Assembly (NCBI GenBank): GCA_026985515.1
Contig: JALSQH010000038.1
Coordinates: 1-17,981 of the forward strand
Source of the DNA: a bacterium
Lineage (GTDB): Bacteria > JALSQH01
Direction of reading: 5' to 3'
DNA: 17,981 bases
Below are positions 1,161 to 17,981 of the stretch, piece after piece; the stretch's first letter is position 1, and every line of letters begins with the position of its first letter. Made by a program: the position numbers and the translations under genes. The notes below the pieces were generated by a model. It worked only from the letters and a program-made list of their open reading frames with translations, made no database searches and was not told the DNA's origin.

Positions 1161-4100
1161 TCATTTCATCCGTGTAAATGTGGATTCAAGTAACACAGAG
1201 GGTGTAAGATAGTAAAAACCATTTCCAGTGGCAATTCCAGTATTCACATAATTCTTACCGTCAACTGCGATAGCAAAGAAACCTGCATACTGACCACCAG
1301 TTTCCGTGATATGGAACTTTTTCCAGTTCCCATATTTTCCAGTCGCATAAACAATTCTGTTTGAGTTGTAAGTGGAATATACCATGTGAACCTTTCCAGA
1401 ATCATCCACAGTTATCGCTCCATGGCCTGCATAAGCATCACTACTTATCAGCTCACTTTTCCATTTTCCCGACCTGCTGGTGGCATAGAACAGATTGTTG
1501 CCAGATTTATAGATCAGGTAAATGTGATTATCTCTATCCATGGTCACATCAAAATTTCGTACAGCAGGAAAGGGAGTTTCATGTATTCTGCCTTCATTTA
1601 CATCGTAATAGAGGAGTTTATTCCTCTGTTCAGAGAAATCTGAGTAAAAAATCAGAACTCTGTCTCCTCTTCCTATGATTTCAGGTACAGAATTTTCCAC
1701 ATCCTCCTTCCCATCTAACATTATTGGTCCCCTCCAGTCTCCATCGTTATTCTCCATATACTTAACCTGATTGTAATTATCAACATAGATCAGGTGAATA
1801 ACTCTCCTCTCATCTATAAAAAGGGATGGATAGTTCACCTGATCTCCGCCGGTATTCACAACTTCACCGTAAAAAGCAACATCCGTGTCAGGATAAAAGT
1901 ACTTATGAATCAACTCACCCCTATCTGGATCATAGTAAACAAAGTGGACTTTACCCTCATCATCACTGGCCACCGCCCTTCCTGAACTCAGATCCTTATC
2001 TGTAACGGGCGTCGAGTACCAGAAATTTTTGTAAAGATAATAATAGGTAAGGCTTCCATAGCCACCGTGATTTTCCTCCACGAGAATGCCAGGAAATTTT
2101 GAATTCTCAATGTTAAACCAGATTCCACCTATCCATGAAGACTCATGATGCCCGATTTCCTGCATATCAAAGGGTAACTCATATAAGTAAATTCTCTCCC
2201 CATCTGAAGAAGGGTTGCCAGCTGTTATGAAAATTCTGTTGTGATCATCTCTGTTAATCGAGACTGAGTGACCATCCCCCCTCAGAGATTTAACCTGCCA
2301 CCCATCACCAGTTTCAACTGCCACTTTGAGGCCGGATCCCACAAATGAGGCTATAATCTCACCATCTGCACCTGCAACGACATCGCAGTCTATGATATTT
2401 TCATTTGAAATTACCCGAGTATGCCATGTCCCATTACTTTTAAAAGCGTATTTAACCACCTCCGTATCAGAATCTGCATAAACTATATGCGGCCTTCCCC
2501 AACCATCAAGAGCGAGAGAGTTGTAAGCTCCCACATCATGACTGCTGTTATCCACAACCGTGATGCTCCATGAAGAACCATTCTTCTCAGCATACTTCAG
2601 TTCATGATTGGTGTTATCGTAATAAGCAAGTTTTATTCTTCCAGCATTATCCACAGCAATGGAATTAAAAATGCCAGCGTCGTTGCTGTCAGGAACAGTT
2701 TCACTTACCCACCCCCCATATTTTCTGTATGAAACTCTCAATCTCCTCACCGTTGAACCATACTGATTCCTCAATTGATAGTAGGCAATATATGGAGTTC
2801 TATGACTATCAAGGGCAATAGAAGTTCTGAAGGGAGTATACAGAGAAACATTTTTGCTCTCATCAAATGTTTCAATTTCCCAATTACCTCCCGAATAATA
2901 TGCCATTCTAAAATAAGCAGTATATGTTGATCCTGAACCTTCGGGAATCATATCCACAAAGGAGATATATGGCCTCCCATTCTCATCAACTGCTATATCG
3001 GAATCCCAGCCATCACTTCCATCTGCCTCAACCACCTGATACCTCCATTCACTGCCGGCGTTGGTTGCGTAAATCAAACGACTATCACTGGATTGAAAAA
3101 CCATATGTATCCAGCCATTCCTGTCAAGGGCCATAGAAATCTTACCAGCTGGTGCTGGCAAACCTTCAATCTCTTTTCTCATAACTCCAGGCAGATCAAA
3201 ACTATTGTTCCATATCATATCCCCAAGGTAATTATAATTTCTCAATTCAAGAGAACCATTCCAGACCTCCCATGGAAATTTTTTAAGATTTACCTCTGTT
3301 GAATTGTTGTAAACATTGTCACTGTATGTCTCACCGGTGATATCTTCGTACGAGTAATTTCCAAGGAGAGTGGAGGTTCCCTCAGGATTATCCCATACAA
3401 CATGCACCCCATCTGCAGCACTAACATAGTAAGCTCTTTTAACAGGATCAATTGGCAATCCCGCATTAAAAGGGGCAGACCATTCTGAAACATTGCCAAC
3501 ATTATCAATCGTTCTGATTCTGTAAAGATGGGGGTATCCTGGCAAAATTGAAACATCAGTGTATGTGGTTACTCCTGCAGGGAGCTCCGCCACAGTTACA
3601 AAAAAGGTATCTATACCCTCAATCTTTCTCTGCAATTCAAAGTGGTCCAGATCAGCTGACCCGGGAAAACTCCACCCTATTTTAATCTGGTTATTACTGA
3701 AAGATACTCTGTACAGATCAGGAACTGGTGGGGGTGTGGTATCCAGAGTAACAACAGTCAAATACACAGGTGACTCATTACCTGCATAATCAACATACTT
3801 CACAAATATCTCCTTTACTCCATCACCAGAGGTTAAATACCACTCAGTTGAAGTTGTGGCGCTAATTTGATACGATTCACCAAATGCAGGGAAGTTACTT
3901 ATGAGAATTCTGGCAGTATCAGTTGAATAACCGGCAAATTTAAGATTCACTATGGGAGAATTCACCTTTCCATCCACTTTAACATCTTCAACTTCTGCCG
4001 GTGAACCTTCGGGAGGAGTGGTGTCTTTAATAAATTTCAAAACAGCAGATGTTTCATTTCCTGCGTAATCTCTGAAAGATATTCTCAGAGTGTAATCACC

Positions 4101-5318
4101 ATCAGAAGTAAGCGTGACAGAATAGTACTGCTGATAAGGCATCCAGCGTGAAACACTACCATTTACTCTTATTCTGAAATCCTTTACCCCACTTTCATTG
4201 TCAGAAACCACAGAATTCAGAGGAAGCTCTCCCCTCCCTCTGAAATACAGCCTTTCTCCATATCTGACAACATCACCTGTGTCTATAATGCCAAGATAAA
4301 TTACCTCGGGTTTCCCCTGATCAAGATAAATCGACTCTTTCAATACCCCTGTCTCATAACCATACTGGTCCCTGAAATTCACACAAACAGTTTTCATTCC
4401 GCTTCCCTCAGTTAGCAGCCACTCCTCGGTGGCTTTGAAAATCTTCCATCCTGTAAAGTGACAATCTCCATCATAGTAATTTCCAGTGGTCATTGCAGTT
4501 GCATTAAAACCATACAGCTCAAGTTTAACTTCCCGTGTTGATGAAAATGAATAATCCGGGACAGGTTCCCCATTTTCACCTTTAACATATCCTCTAATTT
4601 TAAATGCACCTGTCACTCTGAAAAGTACCACATTACCCACATCTTTTACACCATTCTTTTCATCTGCAATAACTATATTGTCAATTTTCCTTGTAAGGTA
4701 TCCATCTTTCTTTATCAGAAGTGAATACTTCCCGGCATAGACATTATTGAAGTGAAACTCTCCATCCTCATCAACAGTTTTTACCACTGTAAAATCTGAT
4801 GTTTCAGCGGGGAAACTTTCACTCATTTTTCCAAAACCTGATTTTGAAGTGGAAACTCTTTTCAAGATAACAATTGCTCCATCTGGAGAGGAAGATTCCC
4901 CTCCACTCTGTTGCAGGACCACCTTTCCAGTCAGCAGAAATTTCAGAGCTCTTACGAAAATTTCACCTGTATCCTGGATGGTTCCTATCCCCACAGAGAT
5001 TTTTTTCACCGTTCTAACAAAATATTTCTCAGATACAATTATTGAGTAATTTCCAGGTATTACACCTGTAAACTTGAACTTTCCCTCTCTATCTGTAACG
5101 ACGCTTTTTGAATCAAGTTTTCCCTGAAGAAGTACAGTAACACCAGCATAGTCACTTTCTCCCTCAAGAACAATATGACCTGTAACCACACTCCTTTTCT
5201 GGTATCTGACCGGATCAGCTTCGGGATCGTAGGCATTAGTATGATCAAGATTATCTGAGCAGGAAATCAGAAAAAAAGCAATGAAAAGAAAAAGAAAAAA
5301 AATTCTTGGAGAACTCAT
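1161..5318 (-). CDS. Large surface lipoprotein: two carboxypeptidase-regulatory-like domains, Ig-like/FN3 modules, 14 propeller-type repeats
   Basis: 1385 residues. A lipoprotein signal (hydrophobic residues 6-18, LISC lipobox, Cys20) predicts signal peptidase II cleavage; Ser21 does not match the usual inner-membrane retention signal. A GGGGAGG site 5 bases before the ATG supports the start. Residues 43-121 and about 125-235 look like carboxypeptidase regulatory-like beta-sandwiches ('G.F.F..V..G.Y...'). Residues about 290-520 hold Ig-like modules with related 'D..GNE' ends near 417-422 and 510-515. An FN3-like domain lies around 530-620, with the 'DTTPP' linker common before FN3. From about residue 728 to the C-terminus there are about 14 degenerate repeats of 45-50 residues, with cores such as 'SIAVDNAGRIKLAYYD' and 'LKYA...G.SW'. 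No catalytic residues are recognised; adhesion, binding or structural roles are all possible. It has its own promoter with a CRP-type site and precedes hemW. The architecture is clear; the function is unknown. Confidence 0.9.
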   Translation of the reverse strand: MSSPRIFFLFLFIAFFLISCSDNLDHTNAYDPEADPVRYQKRSVVTGHIVLEGESDYAGVTVLLQGKLDSKSVVTDREGKFKFTGVIPGNYSIIVSEKYFVRTVKKISVGIGTIQDTGEIFVRALKFLLTGKVVLQQSGGESSSPDGAIVILKRVSTSKSGFGKMSESFPAETSDFTVVKTVDEDGEFHFNNVYAGKYSLLIKKDGYLTRKIDNIVIADEKNGVKDVGNVVLFRVTGAFKIRGYVKGENGEPVPDYSFSSTREVKLELYGFNATAMTTGNYYDGDCHFTGWKIFKATEEWLLTEGSGMKTVCVNFRDQYGYETGVLKESIYLDQGKPEVIYLGIIDTGDVVRYGERLYFRGRGELPLNSVVSDNESGVKDFRIRVNGSVSRWMPYQQYYSVTLTSDGDYTLRISFRDYAGNETSAVLKFIKDTTPPEGSPAEVEDVKVDGKVNSPIVNLKFAGYSTDTARILISNFPAFGESYQISATTSTEWYLTSGDGVKEIFVKYVDYAGNESPVYLTVVTLDTTPPPVPDLYRVSFSNNQIKIGWSFPGSADLDHFELQRKIEGIDTFFVTVAELPAGVTTYTDVSILPGYPHLYRIRTIDNVGNVSEWSAPFNAGLPIDPVKRAYYVSAADGVHVVWDNPEGTSTLLGNYSYEDITGETYSDNVYNNSTEVNLKKFPWEVWNGSLELRNYNYLGDMIWNNSFDLPGVMRKEIEGLPAPAGKISMALDRNGWIHMVFQSSDSRLIYATNAGSEWRYQVVEADGSDGWDSDIAVDENGRPYISFVDMIPEGSGSTYTAYFRMAYYSGGNWEIETFDESKNVSLYTPFRTSIALDSHRTPYIAYYQLRNQYGSTVRRLRVSYRKYGGWVSETVPDSNDAGIFNSIAVDNAGRIKLAYYDNTNHELKYAEKNGSSWSITVVDNSSHDVGAYNSLALDGWGRPHIVYADSDTEVVKYAFKSNGTWHTRVISNENIIDCDVVAGADGEIIASFVGSGLKVAVETGDGWQVKSLRGDGHSVSINRDDHNRIFITAGNPSSDGERIYLYELPFDMQEIGHHESSWIGGIWFNIENSKFPGILVEENHGGYGSLTYYYLYKNFWYSTPVTDKDLSSGRAVASDDEGKVHFVYYDPDRGELIHKYFYPDTDVAFYGEVVNTGGDQVNYPSLFIDERRVIHLIYVDNYNQVKYMENNDGDWRGPIMLDGKEDVENSVPEIIGRGDRVLIFYSDFSEQRNKLLYYDVNEGRIHETPFPAVRNFDVTMDRDNHIYLIYKSGNNLFYATSRSGKWKSELISSDAYAGHGAITVDDSGKVHMVYSTYNSNRIVYATGKYGNWKKFHITETGGQYAGFFAIAVDGKNYVNTGIATGNGFYYLTPSVLLESTFTRMK
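1164..3137 (-). repeat. Protein-level tandem repeats (about 14 units of about 47 residues) in the lipoprotein
   Basis: Unit cores begin near lipoprotein residues 728, 784, 833, 886, 934, 979, 1018, about 1066 (degenerate), 1114, 1163, 1210, 1256, 1301 and 1348, mostly 45-53 residues apart. The consensus is roughly 'S-[IL]-A-[VL]-D-x-x-G-[RK]-x-[HY]-[IM]-x-[YF]', then '[LV]-x-Y-A-x-x-x-G-x-W' about 20 residues on. The units are too diverged at DNA level to be recent duplications. The pattern is that of a beta-propeller; fourteen units would make two seven-bladed propellers, which is inference. Units 7 and 8 are the weakest and may mark the boundary between two propellers. Confidence 0.7.
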
Positions 5319-5471: not shown

Positions 5472-5506
5472 TTTTTTCAGTTTATATTCAAGGTGAGGAT
5501 AAAAAA

Positions 5507-7156
5507 ATGATCAGAATTCTCTGTCTGGGTGGCTGTGGTGAAATTGGACTGAACAGCATCGTGGTAGAAATTAATGAAAAACTCATACTTATTGACTCAG
5601 GTATGGGTTTCCCTTCATGTTCCCATTATGGGGTTGACCTTTTAATTCCCGATTTTAAGTATATCAGGGAAAATCAGGAAAAACTTGAGGCAATTCTGCT
5701 CACTCATGGGCATGAGGATCATATCGGCGCACTACCCTACCTCTTTTCCCAACTGGAAAGGAGTGTTCCCGTCTTTGGAGGAGAATTCACTCTTGCCCTT
5801 GCAGAAAAAAGATTTGAAGGATTTGAAACTGAATCTAAACCTAAATGGAGTGTGGTAAGTCCATTTGAGAAAATGGAAATTAATGAAAACATTTTTGCAA
5901 AGTTTATTCCTGTTACCCACAGTACTGTTGACAGCTATGCAATCGCACTCTATACGGACGAAGGGATCATTTTCCATACGGGAGATTTTAAAATAGATAG
6001 ATCTCCATTAAACGGGGATCCATTCCCTGAAAATGAAATTAGAAACGTTGGAAGTGAAGGTGTTAAAATCCTGTTATCAGAAAGTACAAATGTTGAACTT
6101 CCAGGTTACTCTCTCCCCGAAAAGGATGTAAAAGAATCTCTATTCAAAATTTTCGAAAAGGCAGAGGGAAGGATTCTATTTACAACCTTCTCCTCTCATA
6201 TAACAAGAATTAAAGAAGTTATTGACATTTCAGCTCAGCTCGGAAGAAAAGTTTATATCAGCGGAAGAAGCATAAAGGAAAGTGTTGAGATTGCTTTTAA
6301 ACTTGGGATTTTTGGAGAAGAGGAGAGAAAAGCCATTATTGGCGATTTATCGGACATTCCAGACAGAGCTTTTACAATAATTGTAACGGGAAGTCAGGGA
6401 GAACCATTCTCCACCCTTTACAGAATTTCCAGAAATGAAGATAGAAACATCAAGATAAAACCTGACGACATAGTAATAATTTCAGCCAAATTTATTCCAG
6501 GACAGGAAAAGGCAATCTACAGTTACATCAACAGACTTTACAAGCTGGGAGTAAAAGAGGTTTTTTATGAGAAACTTCACCAGGTTCATGCCTCAGGCCA
6601 TGCCCACAGAGAAGAACTCAGAGAGATGATCAGAATGATCAGGCCTGAGATTTTCATTCCCGTTCATGGTGAATACAGACATCTTGAGCTTCACAGAAGA
6701 CTCGCAAGTGAAGAAGGGATCGAAAAAACCTTTGTCCTTCAGAATGGTGAAGGAGTGGTGATAGAAGGAGAAGAAATTCATAAATTTGAGTATCCAGTTG
6801 GAGTAACTTACATAGATGGATTAAGTACCGGAGATCTCTCGGGAGAAGTGATGAAAAAGAGAAAATTCATTTCAAGGGAGGGATTGATAGTTCTTTTTGG
6901 CGTCATTAACAGTGCAAGGGAGTTTTCCTTTGGACCCAAGATATTCTCTCTGGGAATTGTGGAGGAAGATGTTTTTGAAGAATTGAAAGAAAGGATTACA
7001 GGGATAACTACTGAAGTTTTAAAAAACATTAAAAAGGTTTCTCCTGATCACATACCACTTATTGAAGAAGAGATGAGAGTCAGGATCAGAAGATTTATGA
7101 GAGGAGTAACGGGTAAAAACCCTCTCATTACTGTTATTCTGGAATTTGAAAATTAG
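5507..7156 (+). CDS. rnj: Ribonuclease J (beta-CASP metallo-beta-lactamase ribonuclease)
   Basis: 549 residues, the usual full length for RNase J. The metallo-beta-lactamase domain starts at residue 1 (LGGCGEIG near 8-14). It carries the zinc motif THGHEDH (H67, H69, D71, H72), a further His in VTHST (H138) and the bridging Asp in HTGDFK (D160). The beta-CASP part contains TTFSSH, VTGSQGEP and HASGHA, followed by IPVHGEYRHL with the last metal His. The C-terminal domain (about residues 450-549) is present. RNase J is a cytoplasmic 5'-3' exo- and endonuclease for mRNA turnover and rRNA maturation. The ATG has a ribosome binding site and a consensus promoter upstream. The gene appears monocistronic; its stop overlaps that of convergent tlyA. 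A single copy is seen, so J1 versus J2 cannot be decided. Confidence 0.95.
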   Translation: MIRILCLGGCGEIGLNSIVVEINEKLILIDSGMGFPSCSHYGVDLLIPDFKYIRENQEKLEAILLTHGHEDHIGALPYLFSQLERSVPVFGGEFTLALAEKRFEGFETESKPKWSVVSPFEKMEINENIFAKFIPVTHSTVDSYAIALYTDEGIIFHTGDFKIDRSPLNGDPFPENEIRNVGSEGVKILLSESTNVELPGYSLPEKDVKESLFKIFEKAEGRILFTTFSSHITRIKEVIDISAQLGRKVYISGRSIKESVEIAFKLGIFGEEERKAIIGDLSDIPDRAFTIIVTGSQGEPFSTLYRISRNEDRNIKIKPDDIVIISAKFIPGQEKAIYSYINRLYKLGVKEVFYEKLHQVHASGHAHREELREMIRMIRPEIFIPVHGEYRHLELHRRLASEEGIEKTFVLQNGEGVVIEGEEIHKFEYPVGVTYIDGLSTGDLSGEVMKKRKFISREGLIVLFGVINSAREFSFGPKIFSLGIVEEDVFEELKERITGITTEVLKNIKKVSPDHIPLIEEEMRVRIRRFMRGVTGKNPLITVILEFEN

Positions 7157-7884
7157 ATGTGAAAATACGCGAGGAATTCCACATTTCCCTTCTGTCCCTT
7201 GATTGGGGATTCAACCCATCCCTCAATCACAAGGCCAAGATTTCTGGCAAAATTTAATATTTTTTCAACAGCTTCCATCTGATATTCTCTTTTACGCACC
7301 ACCCCACCCTTTCCCACTTTCTCCCTTCCCACCTCAAACTGGGGTTTAATAAGTACGACTATTTCTTTCCTTCCCTCAAGGATCCCGTAGATAACAGGTA
7401 GAACCAGCGTCAGGGAGATAAAGGAAAGATCCAGGGTTGCCATAACAGGCGGTATTTGAAAATGTTCTCTGGTTACATACCTGATATTGGTGTTGTCCAT
7501 AACCACAACTCTTGGATCCTTCTGAAGTTTCCAGTGTAACTGCCCCCTTCCCACATCCACCGCATATACGAGCCTGGCTCCCCTCTGCAACAGGAGATCA
7601 GTGAAGCCCCCTGTAGAAGCCCCTGCATCAATAACCACCTTATCTCTAACATCGATATTAAAGTGATCAAGAGCCTTTTGAAGTTTAAGGCCTCCCCTGC
7701 TCACATAGGGCAATCTCTCTCTGACCCTGAGCGGCGCGTCAACGGGAAGAAGTTCACCTGCCTTCTCTATTTTTCTGTTTTCAAGAAAAACCTCTCCAGC
7801 AAGGATTAATGCACGCGCCTTCTCCCTCGATTCTGCAAGACCCCTTTCTACAAGGAGCAGATCAGCCCTTTTCTTTTCAACCAT
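7153..7884 (-). CDS. tlyA: TlyA-family rRNA 2'-O-methyltransferase (S4 + FtsJ-like domains)
   Basis: About 243 residues. An N-terminal S4 RNA-binding domain (residues 1-60; R-A-D-L-L-L-V-E-R-G-L then S-R-E-K-A-R-A-L-I) precedes a Rossmann methyltransferase with the SAM loop DAGASTGGFTD near residues 86-96. YVSRGGLKL links the two. TlyA enzymes 2'-O-methylate cytidines in 16S and 23S rRNA; some homologues were called haemolysins. I prefer the ATG at 7884, which fits family N-termini and overlaps the end of dxs by 8 bases. An in-frame TTG at 7890 would add two residues and sits 4-5 bases after GGA, so it cannot be excluded. This is the last gene of the nif3-to-tlyA operon, and its stop overlaps that of convergent rnj. 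The substrate nucleotide is inferred from the family. Confidence 0.9.
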   Translation of the reverse strand: MVEKKRADLLLVERGLAESREKARALILAGEVFLENRKIEKAGELLPVDAPLRVRERLPYVSRGGLKLQKALDHFNIDVRDKVVIDAGASTGGFTDLLLQRGARLVYAVDVGRGQLHWKLQKDPRVVVMDNTNIRYVTREHFQIPPVMATLDLSFISLTLVLPVIYGILEGRKEIVVLIKPQFEVGREKVGKGGVVRKREYQMEAVEKILNFARNLGLVIEGWVESPIKGQKGNVEFLAYFHI

Positions 7885-12596: not shown

Positions 12597-13463
12597 ATGG
12601 TTGCGTCCATGCTGAGAGAGGAAGAACAAATAAAAAAGAAAATAGATTTCAGAGCGATCCACGAAGTAAAAAAAATACTTCGTACTTCCCGGCTCCATAC
12701 AGTTTGTGAAGAAGCGAAGTGCCCCAACATTGTTGAATGCTTCCAGAAGCCCACTGCTACATTTCTTATTTTAGGTGACATATGTACAAGGAACTGCCGA
12801 TTCTGCAGCATTAAGAAGGGTAAACCATTTCCACCTGATCCCTACGAACCCTTCCATCTTGCCATCACATCAAAGCTGATGGGTCTGAAACATGTCGTCA
12901 TAACCTCGGTAACAAGAGACGATTTACCGGATGGAGGAGCAGAGCATTTTGCAAAATCAATAAGGTTTGTAAGGGACGTCACAGGTGCAACAGTGGAGGT
13001 TCTCACACCAGATTTCAAGGGCAAAAGAGACGCCATAGACAAAGTTATTGACGCACATCCAGAGATTTTTAACCACAATGTTGAGACGGTGCCTTCCCTC
13101 TACAGAAGAGTAAGACCCCAGGCGGATTATGCGAGATCTCTTCATGTGCTGGAATATGTGAAAGCAAAAGACCCTTCAATTCTCACAAAATCGGGATTGA
13201 TGGTTGGACTCGGGGAAACCCTGAAAGAAGTTAAAAAGGTTATGGTGGATCTGAAAAATGCAGGGTGCGACATCGTCACCATCGGGCAGTACTTCCAGCC
13301 TACCAGAAAACAGCTTCCGGTGCATGAACTGATAAGTAGCGAGAAGTATGAAGAGCTTACAGAGTTTGGAAAAGAAATTGGAATAAAATACGTATTTGCA
13401 GGGAGATACGTGAGGAGTTCATATAATGCAGCGGAAATATACGCTCTTTTAAAAGGAGTTTAG
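12597..13463 (+). CDS. lipA: Lipoyl synthase
   Basis: 288 residues. LipA inserts two sulfur atoms into protein-bound octanoate to form the lipoyl cofactor of 2-oxoacid dehydrogenases and the glycine cleavage system. Both clusters are encoded: the auxiliary cluster C37-x4-C42-x5-C48 and the radical SAM motif C63-x3-C67-x2-C70. The conserved Ser near the C-terminus is in RSSYNA (residues 273-278). The N-terminus is short and lacks the usual K-P-x-W segment. It cannot be extended, because an in-frame TAA sits at 12591-12593. No ribosome binding site precedes the ATG at 12597; an ATG at 12609 is the alternative. alaC begins one base after the stop, so this is the first gene of the plus-strand operon. 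LipB or LplA is not in the window. Confidence 0.95.
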
Positions 13464-13464
13464 A

Positions 13465-14670
13465 ATGAATGGAGAGGAAAAATTTCCGAAAATTCAGAGA
13501 CTTCCCCCCTATGTTTTCAATATAGTCAACGAATTGAAGATTGCCGCACGCCGGACAGGGGAAGATATAGTTGACCTTGGAATGGGTAACCCCGATTTAC
13601 CCACCCCCAGACACATTGTGGAAAAATTAAAAGAAGCAGTGGATAATCCAAGAAACCATCGATACTCGGTTTCAAGGGGTATCTATAAACTCCGACTCGC
13701 CATTGCCAACTGGTATAAAAGGAAATTTAACGTTGATATTGACCCGGAAACAGAAGCAGTGGTAACTATAGGCTCAAAAGAGGGACTTGCACATCTTGTA
13801 CTTGCAATGATCGGCCCGGGAGATGTGGTTATTGTTCCCACACCCAACTATCCCATCCACACATACAGCGTGGTTATTGCAGGTGGAGATGTAAGGCATG
13901 TTCCCCTGGAACCTGACAGATGCTTCATTGAGGATCTGGAAAAAACTGTTAAAGATTCCTGGCCCAGGCCAAAACTCCTGATCATAAATTATCCCAACAA
14001 TCCCACCACAAAAGTGGTTGATCTTGAATTCTTCAAAAGAATAGTTGATTTTGCAAAGGAGAACAATATATACATAATTCATGATTTTGCCTATGCGGAA
14101 CTTGTTTTTGACGGATACAGGGCACCAAGCATCCTGCAGGTACCAGGTGCAAAAGATGTTGCAGTGGAATCCTACTCTCTCTCCAAAACCTACAATATGC
14201 CGGGGTGGAGAGTGGGATTCATGGTGGGTAATAAAGATATGATTCATGCCCTGGCAAGAATTAAAAGTTACCTTGATTATGGAATGTTTCAACCCATTCA
14301 AATTGCATCAATTATCGCTTTAAATGGGCCTCAGGACTGTGTGAAAGAAACAGTTGAGACATACAGAAAGAGGAGAGATGTCTTAATCAGGGGACTGAAA
14401 AATGTAGGATGGGATGTAGAACCACCCCTTGCCACCATGTTTGTATGGGCAAGGATACCAGAACCATTCAGAAAAATGGGTTCACTTGAATTTGCCAAAC
14501 TTCTTCTTAAGGAGGGAAAGGTTGCAGTATCCCCTGGAATTGGATTTGGTAACAATGCAGATGAGTATGTAAGATTCGCCCTTGTGGAAAATGAGCACAG
14601 AATAAGACAGGCTATCAGGGGCATTAGAAGAGTATTCCAGAAGTATGGAGCGGATGGAGGTAAGAAATGA
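13465..14670 (+). CDS. alaC: AlaC-type alanine/pyruvate aminotransferase (class I/II PLP enzyme)
   Basis: 401 residues, fold type I aminotransferase very close to E. coli AlaC (YfdZ). Shared stretches include [25 protein letters not shown] and VAVE followed by [15 protein letters not shown] contacts visible are N178 (NYPNNP), D207 (HDFAYAE) and the Schiff-base K241. The likely reaction is glutamate plus pyruvate giving alanine plus 2-oxoglutarate; a broader substrate range is possible and cannot be read from sequence. The start has AAAGGAG 6 bases upstream. The TGA overlaps the ATG of hom (ATGA), indicating translational coupling. The alaC-hom pairing recurs in several bacterial lineages, so the annotation 'aspartate aminotransferase-like' would also be understandable from context. 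Confidence 0.93.
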
Positions 14671-15938
14671 AGGAAGTTAAGATTGGTCTGATTGGATTTG
14701 GTACAATTGGTACCGGAATGGTAAAAACCATTTTTCAAAACAGGGAGTGGATAAAAAACAGAACGGGAATTGACCTTAACCTTGTCAAAATTGCAGATAT
14801 AGATATTAAAAGAGAAAGAGAAGTAAAAGTTTCAGAGGATCTTCTGACAACAGATGCCTATGAAATCATAAATGACCCATCCATAGATATTGTTGTGGAA
14901 CTGGTTGGAGGCACCACAGTTGCAAAACAATTTATCATTGATTCCATCAGGAATGGGAAAGCAGTTGTAACCGCCAACAAGGCACTGCTGGCAGAACATG
15001 GCGAAGAAATTTTCAGACTCTCCAGAGAAAAAGGAATTCCCATTGCTTTTGAGGCGAGTGTGGGAGGGGGAATTCCCATAATAAAGGCTATGAGAGAAAG
15101 CTATGCTGCAAACCACATTTCCAGAATTGCAGGAATCGTAAACGGAACATGCAACTATATTCTGACCACCATGGAAAAAGAGGGAAAAGATTTCAGAGAG
15201 GTTCTTGCTGAAGCACAGAAAAATGGATATGCTGAGGCTGACCCATCTCTCGACATTGATGGTGGAGATTCCGCCCATAAACTTGCAATTTTAGCCATGC
15301 TTGCATTTGGTAAAAGAGTTAATCTCAAAGAGATTTACGTTGAAGGCATTTCAAGGATAACTCCTCTCGACATTAAATTTGCCTCTGACTTACACTACAG
15401 AATCAAACTCCTTGCCATAGCAAGAGAAAGAGAAGATGGTGTGGAACTCAGAGTTCATCCAGCCATGGTTCCCGAAGAACATCTTCTTGCAAAGATAGAT
15501 GGAGTTTACAACGCAATTTACCTTGAGGGAGACATTGTGGGTCCAAATCTTCTTTATGGTCAGGGTGCAGGCATGATGGCAACGGCAAGTGCAGTGGTTG
15601 CAGATATAATTGATCTTGCAAGAAAAATAGACTATCCAAGAGTTGAAGAGGACTTCGTAAAATGTGATGGCGACCTGAATATAATACCCATTGAGAAACA
15701 TGTAAGCCCTTTTTATCTCAGATTTCAGGTTGTTGACAAACCCGGCGTGCTTGCAAAGATTGCAGGAATTCTTGGTGATCACGATATATCAATTGCCTCA
15801 ATGATCCAGCCCGAGCGTAGAGAAGGTGAAAGTGTGCCCATTGTTATTATTACCCACGAATCCGTGGAGGGTAATTTGATTAAGGCCATAGAAAAAATTG
15901 ACAAACTTGACATAATCAGGGCAAAACCCAGATCATAA
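14667..15938 (+). CDS. hom: Homoserine dehydrogenase with C-terminal ACT domain
   Basis: 423 residues, a normal length for the monofunctional, ACT-containing form. It reduces aspartate semialdehyde to homoserine with NAD(P)H on the way to threonine and methionine. The N-terminal Rossmann loop is GFGTIGTG (10-17); [11 protein letters not shown] carries catalytic K105; the substrate domain has [10 protein letters not shown] (156-165) and GGDSAHK with K205. Residues about 350-420 form an ACT domain ([18 protein letters not shown]), consistent with allosteric control by threonine, which is inferred. GGAGG lies 6 bases before the ATG. The gene overlaps alaC by four bases and is followed after 36 bases by the ApgM-like gene. 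No aspartate kinase is fused or adjacent. Confidence 0.97.
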
Positions 15939-15974: not shown

Positions 15975-17192
15975 ATGAAATACATAATTCTTCAGGGTGA
16001 TGGAATGGCAGATATGCCTGTGGAGGAACTTGGCAACAGGACTCCCCTTGAAGTGGCTGATAAACCCAACATAACCAGGCTTCTCTCATACAGCCTGATG
16101 GGGGTGATCCACACAATTCCAGAAAATCTCCCACCGGGAAGTGATGTGGGTAACCTCTCTCTTTTGGGATATGATCCTGTGAAGTACTACACAGGCAGAG
16201 CTGCCATTGAAGCTGCAGCCATGGGAATAAAGATGGACAGGGGAGATGTTGCGTACAGGTGCAATCTGGTTACTCTGAGTGAAGGTAATCCGAGAAAAAT
16301 GGTGGATTACAGTGCGGGTCACATCTCCACAGAGGAAGCCAGGGAGTTAATAGAAGAGGTAAACAGACAGCTGGGATCAGAAAGTTTTCAATTTTATCCG
16401 GGAGTAAGTTACAGACATATAATGCTCTGGAAAAATGGTATTGCTGATCCAGTCACCACCCCACCCCATGACATCTCAGGCGAGGAAATAGAGAAACATC
16501 TTCCAAAGGGAGAAGGAAGCGAAGTTCTGATTGAACTTATAAAAAAATCCTGGTCATTTCTCCCGGGACATCCCGTAAATATTAAGAGAATTGAAAAAGG
16601 AGAAAATCCTGCCAACAGTATATGGTTATGGGGACAGGGCACAACACCCCAGATAGAACCTATTGAGAAAAAATATGGTATCTCAGGAGCAATGATCTCT
16701 GCAGTTGACCTTCTCAAAGGACTTGCTAAACTTATGGGTATGGAAGTGATCAATGTACCGGGGGCAACAGGCTATCTGGATACAAATTATCAGGGAAAAG
16801 TGGAAGCGGCACTGGAGGCACTTAAAAGAGTGGATCTTGTATTTGTTCACATTGAAGCACCAGATGAAACGGGGCATCAGGGAAGGGCGGATTTGAAGGT
16901 TCAGGCAATTGAAGATTTCGACAAGAAGATTGTCGGCCCCATCGTTGAAGGACTCGGAAAAGAGGATTATCGTCTCCTGATAACACCTGACCATCCAACC
17001 CCTGTAAAATTGAAAACTCACACATCTGCTCCCGTACCATTCATACTTTTTGACTCAAGAGGAAAATATTTCAATGAACTATACCACAATTACAGTGAAA
17101 GTGAAGCGCTCAAAACGGGAATTGAAATCAACCCGGGTTACAGAATAATGGAAATACTTCTTGAAAAGGAAGAGATTGGCTATGGATATTGA
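15975..17192 (+). CDS. ApgM-family protein: archaeal-type phosphoglycerate mutase / proposed homoserine kinase
   Basis: 405 residues of the alkaline-phosphatase superfamily, archaeal-type cofactor-independent phosphoglycerate mutase branch. Metal and catalytic residues are present: D9 in QGDGMAD, nucleophile S56 in PGSDVGN, D297 and H301 in EAPDETGH, D339-H340 in TPDH, and H349. On sequence alone this is a 2,3-bisphosphoglycerate-independent mutase. However, a subfamily of these proteins next to homoserine dehydrogenase has been catalogued as 'proposed homoserine kinase', and the position right after hom fits that idea. I keep both options and give no symbol. A GGAGGAG site lies just before the ATG. 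Its last 11 bases overlap the following GlpX-like gene. Confidence 0.9.
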   Translation: MKYIILQGDGMADMPVEELGNRTPLEVADKPNITRLLSYSLMGVIHTIPENLPPGSDVGNLSLLGYDPVKYYTGRAAIEAAAMGIKMDRGDVAYRCNLVTLSEGNPRKMVDYSAGHISTEEARELIEEVNRQLGSESFQFYPGVSYRHIMLWKNGIADPVTTPPHDISGEEIEKHLPKGEGSEVLIELIKKSWSFLPGHPVNIKRIEKGENPANSIWLWGQGTTPQIEPIEKKYGISGAMISAVDLLKGLAKLMGMEVINVPGATGYLDTNYQGKVEAALEALKRVDLVFVHIEAPDETGHQGRADLKVQAIEDFDKKIVGPIVEGLGKEDYRLLITPDHPTPVKLKTHTSAPVPFILFDSRGKYFNELYHNYSESEALKTGIEINPGYRIMEILLEKEEIGYGY

Positions 17193-17981
17193 CAAAATTG
17201 CCCTTGAGATCCTTGCAGTTACAGAATACACAGCCATAAAGGCAAGTGCCTTTATGGGAAAAGGTGATGAAATTGAAGCTGAAAAAAACGCCATAAAAAG
17301 TATGTGGGATGCTCTGAAAAACTTCCCGTTCTGTGGAGAAGTTGCAATAGGCGAAGGGCTACCTGGAAATATTGAACATCTCTTTGATGGAGAAAAAATT
17401 GGTAACTGTGAGAAAGGTGATATCAGGTATTCTTTTGCCATGAAGGCAATTGAGGGTACAACCCCATGTGTTACTGGAGGTACAAACGCAATTTCCGTGA
17501 TTGGAATCACACGAAAAGGGGGTATTAAGCCCTTCCCTCCAGTTTACATGGAAAAAATAGCAGTTGGCCCCGACGCACGGGATGTGATAAGCTTTGATCT
17601 GTCAATTGAAGAAAACATCAGGAGAATAGCGGACAAGAAGGGAATTCCTGTTGAATATCTCACAGCCATCGTTCTCGATAGACCAAGGAACAGAAACATC
17701 ATTAAATCTATACGAAAAGCCGGAGCCAGGGTCAAACTTATAGGAGATGGAGATGTTGCAGCTGCCATCGCTACAGCCATAGATGGAACGGGAATAGATG
17801 TACTGATGGGTATTGGAGGAGCAAGAGAGGGAGTAATTGCAGCAACAGCTCTGAAGGGACTGGGAGGTGAAATAATCGGGAAATTATGGTTCAGGAACGA
17901 GGATCAGCGCATCATGGCAAGAGATTATGAGCTTGACCATTATGCAATCTACACGACTGAAAATATGGTAACAGGTGATTC
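17182..17981 (+). CDS. GlpX-family (class II fructose-1,6-bisphosphatase-like) protein with altered active site, 3' end outside window
   Basis: Partial: 266 codons are visible with no stop before the window end. The start ATG overlaps the end of the ApgM-like gene by 11 bases. Family features are clear: 'VTE' near residue 14, AIGEG (55-59), GEKIGN (70-75), IEGT (90-93), MEKIAVGPDA, GDGDVAAAI, GIGGAREG and GEIIGKL. But against E. coli GlpX several catalytic positions differ: Lys29 becomes Glu, metal ligand Asp33 becomes Glu34, Glu59 becomes Leu60, Asp61 becomes Gly62, and metal ligand Asp85 of DPIEGT becomes Lys88 (KAIEGT). Glu57 and Glu88 equivalents remain. It may be an enzyme with another substrate or a non-catalytic paralogue. 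A gene symbol glpX would overstate what is known. Membership of the family is secure; fructose-bisphosphatase activity is doubtful. Confidence 0.85.
   Translation, partial: MDIDKIALEILAVTEYTAIKASAFMGKGDEIEAEKNAIKSMWDALKNFPFCGEVAIGEGLPGNIEHLFDGEKIGNCEKGDIRYSFAMKAIEGTTPCVTGGTNAISVIGITRKGGIKPFPPVYMEKIAVGPDARDVISFDLSIEENIRRIADKKGIPVEYLTAIVLDRPRNRNIIKSIRKAGARVKLIGDGDVAAAIATAIDGTGIDVLMGIGGAREGVIAATALKGLGGEIIGKLWFRNEDQRIMARDYELDHYAIYTTENMVTGD

Follow-up and report, generated by a model that had tools for sequence, protein, structure and literature searches.

A GlpX-family protein with an altered metal site, encoded next to hom and an apgM-like gene

The window, the whole 17,981-nucleotide stretch of DNA that we analyzed from an uncultured bacterium (contig C38), ends inside a GlpX-family gene that follows a co-directional run of genes (Table 1). 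The glpX reading frame starts with the ATG at position 17182, overlaps by 11 bases the apgM-like gene, whose stop lies at 17192, and leaves the contig after 266 codons. The C-terminus is therefore absent from the window: 45 further residues (ATGITDGDLLKG...) were found at the edge of C54, a contig of 4,657 bases from the same genome, where ferredoxin-like and 2-oxoacid:ferredoxin oxidoreductase genes follow, and judging by E. coli GlpX the gap between the contigs amounts to about 5 residues. Apart from these two fragments the whole genome has no GlpX match, and together they give a frame open across about 310 codons, with an intact C-terminal motif. The window protein matches the FBPase_glpX family (PF03320) with 289 bits (cut-off 27; 3e-86) and, without its C-terminal 50 residues, scores 209.5 bits against the glpX equivalog TIGR00330, whose cut-off is 259.3. 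Its AlphaFold2 model (mean pLDDT 93.9) superposes on class II fructose-bisphosphatases (FBPases) with a TM score of 0.91, and the top PDB matches all belong to this class.

Table 1. Genes of the co-directional run and sites within the GlpX-family protein
Feature	Position	Strand	Remark
lipA, lipoyl synthase	12597..13463	+	first in the co-directional run
alaT-like class I/II aminotransferase	13465..14670	+	NF006033 over cut-off
hom, homoserine dehydrogenase with ACT domain	14667..15938	+	-
apgM-like, TIGR02535 "proposed homoserine kinase"	15975..17192	+	550 bits, cut-off 446
GlpX-family gene, 5' 266 codons	17182..17981	+	3' end (~50 codons) on contig C54, same genome
Glu34 (GAA)	17281..17283	+	E. 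coli Asp33 position
Residues 58-67, metal-responsive (Psi) loop	17353..17382	+	EGLPGNIEHL replacing EGExDEAPML
KAIEGT, residues 88-93	17443..17460	+	Lys88 for Asp85, Ala for Pro86; Glu88/Thr90 equivalents retained
Tyr122	17545..17547	+	E. coli Tyr119, conserved
Arg-Pro-Arg 167-169	17680..17688	+	6-phosphate pocket, conserved
Asp-Gly-Asp 189-191	17746..17754	+	furanose hydroxyl binding, conserved
Glu216	17827..17829	+	E. coli Glu213, metal ligand inside GIGGAREG, conserved

The catalytic set of class II FBPases comprises, in E. coli numbering, D33, E57, D85, E88, T90, Y119, K164, R166, D188 and E213 (PMC5892879). In solved structures the M1 metal sits on Asp85 and the second site on Asp33 (PMC5892879, PMC10289334), and the loop at about residues 57-65 is reported to be disordered without metal and ordered upon metal binding (PMC10289334). 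Within this set, the window protein differs only at these two ligands: the metal-1 position, normally the Asp of DP[IL]EGT, is Lys88, and the second-site position is Glu34. The Lys164 position is an Arg, the usual alternative, while the Thr90 nucleophile, the ligands E57, E88 and E213, and the residues of the FBP pocket (Y119, R166 in the RPR motif, D188 in DGD) are all in place. An earlier note, made from the sequence alone, had proposed that Lys88 replaces the metal-ligand Asp and that Asp33, Glu59 and Asp61 correspond to Glu34, Leu60 and Gly62, and the alignment bears out each of these assignments. Among the 166 GlpX sequences gathered for residue comparison, Lys at the Asp85 position occurs in the window protein alone (Asp in 159/166). 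The Asp33 position is Asp in 157 of the 166, Glu34 being a conservative change, and positions E59 and D61 are canonical in 149/166 and 152/166, respectively, so that E59L and D61G are unusual; the loop further carries A63I, P64E and M65H. The Glu that the note had read in place of Lys29 is indeed there (E30) but is ordinary, as 36 of the 166 family members have it. Likewise, its description of a fold without canonical metal ligands holds for D33 and D85 and is overstated for E57, E88 and E213, which are kept.

Compared with the class II FBPases of known structure (E. coli 3d1r, M. tuberculosis 6ayy/7txb, F. tularensis 7js3/7txg; TM 0.91, ~32-41% identity), the window protein has the RPR and DGD substrate motifs, Thr90, E57, E88 and E213 in common, but differs by Asp85 to Lys, Asp33 to Glu, Pro86 to Ala and the rewritten loop. 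The cyanobacterial FBPase/SBPase proteins 3roj, 3rpl and 5a5l, dual FBP/SBP enzymes of photosynthetic bacteria, share its family and fold (TM 0.91-0.93), whereas the IMPase/HisN proteins (SuhB, histidinol-phosphate phosphatase) form a different family with a remote superfamily fold in common (TM ~0.4-0.5, 9-16% identity). A scan of 84,980 species returned no close relative of this GlpX, the best matches being canonical proteins at ~46-48% identity; the best plasmid match reached 43%, and a search for viral relatives found none.

We surveyed 386 genomes sampled across bacteria, 86 of which contain PF03320. At least one catalytic residue is lacking in 18 of the 166 GlpX sequences, from about 13 lineages, although some of these are minor cases, such as L078 (E88N only). 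The positions lost most frequently are A63, M65, D61, R41, E59, D33, P64 and T90, while R166, G187, G207 and G209 are never lost in any GlpX compared. The concern that the changes might be unique to one sequence is thus justified for the Lys (1/166) and not for catalytic-site changes in general, which recur. Several altered proteins, those of G049 (L112), G087 (L156), G227 (L152), G073/G344 (L150, L151) and G032 (L110), resemble the window protein in their metal-site and loop changes and in a mostly retained substrate pocket, but each has its own set: position 85 is H, N or D and never Lys, E57 is Q, A, M or kept, and E213 is Q, K or kept. L112 also shares its operon with the window. In a quick tree on all columns, the window protein groups with L156, L152, L150 and L019 (SH-aLRT 88). 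With the altered columns removed, this group and the G049 protein fall on one branch whose support (68/82) is not significant, and the window protein stands next to that of G049 at 77/89, both on long branches. A clade of KAIEGT proteins, which the note had proposed to look for, was not found as such, the Lys being so far unique to this sequence, and what stands of the idea is this weak grouping of altered GlpX from other lineages with the window protein. The hosts of the group span at least three phyla, and with branches this long a common origin of altered GlpX is no more than possible. Phylum-wide searches with an altered-group profile yielded no further altered member, as the phyla of G087 and G073 comprise only 2 and 3 genomes.

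Other altered GlpX take different forms. Those of two genera (L142 and L143, in G080 and G351) are extremely diverged and have lost nearly all catalytic residues, and in L146 and L147 (G060, G201), L186 and L189 (G355) and L188 (G225) Thr90 is replaced by Arg, Val or Gly. In L150 and L152, from two phyla, the altered gene adjoins genes that we read from their sequence as miaB and DUF151 (bifunctional nuclease-like).

The check for a second FBPase, which the note had suggested, turned out positive: a class I FBPase is encoded in the window's genome (G000), where it has both Pfam domains, N- and C-terminal, and a DPLDGSSN motif, and in the sister G001, the one other genome of the family in a sample otherwise related at domain level only. 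FBPA/P was not found in the window's own genome. Elsewhere, altered GlpX occurs alongside FBPase I (G026, G173), FBPA/P (G073, G344, G032) or a separate canonical GlpX encoded elsewhere in the genome (G060, G201, G355). In three altered lineages we found no other FBPase: G049 and G087/G227, whose bins are 68-85% complete, and G080/G351, both 97% complete, in which neither FBPase I nor FBPA/P was detected. Among canonical-only comparison genomes, FBPA/P (PF01950) was present in 0 of 11 and FBPase I (PF00316) in 0 of 4 tested. Altered GlpX and another FBPase are thus associated, on small numbers. In E. coli, FBPase I and a canonical GlpX coexist, so GlpX is not bound to change wherever FBPase I is present. 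The pairing is unlikely to be a binning artifact, since the composition of the window contig fits the rest of its genome (r = 0.973). Contigs of that genome give 0.946-0.986, the sister gives 0.929 and no unrelated organism exceeds 0.80, which makes a mis-binned contig unlikely. In the sampled 18% of G001, the sole homologue of any window gene is an apgM paralogue (31%).

We then considered whether the gene is simply on its way to being lost. The window GlpX branch is about three times the median length, and glpX, hom and this type of apgM were undetected in G001; however, G001 is merely ~80% complete, the frame is open and the C-terminal motif is intact. Moreover, the losses are not scattered. 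Of the 50 positions that 148 canonical GlpX conserve at 95% or more, 12 are lost in the window protein, against an average of 0.7 in canonical proteins; 8 of its losses fall within the 14 metal/loop positions and none within the 8 substrate-pocket positions (P = 0.0016), and the clustering persists when D33 and D85, the residues used in selecting the protein, are set aside (P = 0.009). A sequencing error was also rejected: the K88 codon is AAG and Asp to Lys requires at least two base changes, so a single error could not yield it, and many other changes are co-located. Ongoing decay therefore appears very improbable. Losses, open frame and predicted fold favor a protein that is being maintained and whose metal site has changed, in agreement with the note's view of remodeling rather than random decay.

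The note had correctly placed glpX downstream of hom and overlapping the "proposed homoserine kinase" gene, and had concluded from this, together with the changed metal site, that a sugar- or amino-acid-phosphate role other than FBP hydrolysis, or a regulatory subunit, was suggested. An alaT-hom-apgM-glpX order also occurs in G049, with an altered GlpX, and in G057, with a canonical one; G038 and G183 have canonical GlpX in this order, except that hom and apgM are separated by a gene for a PALP-fold enzyme, most likely threonine synthase, and G288 has an apgM-glpX pair, again with canonical GlpX. Since canonical GlpX fills the identical slot elsewhere, the operon does not argue for a new amino-acid role, and the neighborhood is likely older than the altered site. 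One could still propose that the GlpX-like protein acts on or regulates Hom or the ApgM-like homoserine kinase in response to sugar bisphosphate, as a component of the threonine pathway. The translational overlap and the gene order with hom and apgM, including the probable thrC of G038 and G183, fit this proposal, but canonical GlpX occupies the slot in G038, G183, G057 and G288, and glpX is missing beside most TIGR02535 apgM genes (adjacent in 6 of ~107 genomes). It follows that the linkage likely predates the altered site and does not track it, a point that the note had proposed to check, and we regard a threonine-pathway role as quite unlikely. In the open-access literature searched, we found nothing relevant on GlpX linked to homoserine dehydrogenase. 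For the ApgM-like protein itself, the gene order supports a putative role as a threonine-pathway enzyme. In L196 and L197, a likely thrC (5479-6552 and 6694-7767, respectively) separates hom from the TIGR02535 apgM-like gene, which fits the proposed homoserine kinase role. In L112 (2253-6853, G049), alaT-hom-apgM are followed by another, differently altered GlpX (E57Q, D85H, D33F, T90L; loop GQSMPELQDR) and then by gltX and cysS.

Based on these observations, we think that the window protein is probably, though by no means certainly, a pseudoenzyme or a strongly impaired FBPase that would still bind a sugar bisphosphate. According to this model, an orthologue of canonical glpX would have remained in the ancestral alaT-hom-apgM-glpX slot and been released from FBPase duty, an activity that the intact class I FBPase encoded elsewhere in the genome can supply. 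The protein would keep a normal fold and the fructose-bisphosphate pocket (RPR for the 6-phosphate, DGD for the sugar ring, Tyr119 and Thr90), while the main metal ligand has been swapped for lysine and the metal-responsive loop rewritten. It would thus most likely bind a sugar bisphosphate but show hardly any Mn/Mg-dependent hydrolysis of it, if any, and serve as a ligand-binding or regulatory protein, and it is likely misnamed by the automatic label "fructose-bisphosphatase". Against such a loss of activity speak the three altered lineages in which no other FBPase was found and the retention of Thr90, E57, E88 and E213, which a pure pseudoenzyme would not need to keep.

The same residues, together with the entire substrate pocket and the conservative Asp33 to Glu change, fit the main rival, a phosphatase whose mechanism has changed and whose substrate is FBP or a different sugar bisphosphate. 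In this scheme, Lys88 might be an electrostatic stand-in for the M1 cation or a carbamylated metal ligand, with one metal held by Glu34, Glu58 and Glu216, and one-metal catalysis has been proposed for FtFBPaseII (PMC10289334). However, the single metal of FtFBPaseII sits on the very residue replaced here (Asp84 in Ft; PMC10289334), the loop bearing Glu57 is rewritten, and no family member with Lys at this position is known to be active. We thus view catalysis by such a mechanism as conceivable but rather unlikely. More speculative than this, and doubtful at present, is an extension of the pseudoenzyme reading, in which several uncultured phyla would share a GlpX subfamily turned into a non-catalytic sugar-bisphosphate sensor, two of its lineages still lying in an aspartate/threonine operon; if true, such a sensor could link flux through gluconeogenesis with amino-acid synthesis.

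The naming of class II FBPases is automatic and follows family scores, despite changes at catalytic positions in 18/166, of which a few are minor. Several altered GlpX score over the equivalog cut-off that NCBI applies for naming fructose-bisphosphatase. As a consequence, gluconeogenesis will be credited, in metabolic models of uncultured bacteria, to proteins that possibly do not perform it. The recurrence of such changes beside another FBPase also offers a natural experiment on the fate of a phosphatase fold after release from catalysis. The open-access papers searched gave no account of this recurrence and held nothing relevant on GlpX as a pseudoenzyme. Two further observations concern the surveyed genomes and the window. 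GlpX-like segments lie within long frames of 560-1040 codons in G186, G318, G297 and G285 (L158-L161). Finally, the reverse strand of the window encodes, at 1161-5318, a probable lipoprotein of 1385 residues with repeated domain-like segments, flanked by hemW-like and RNase J-like genes.
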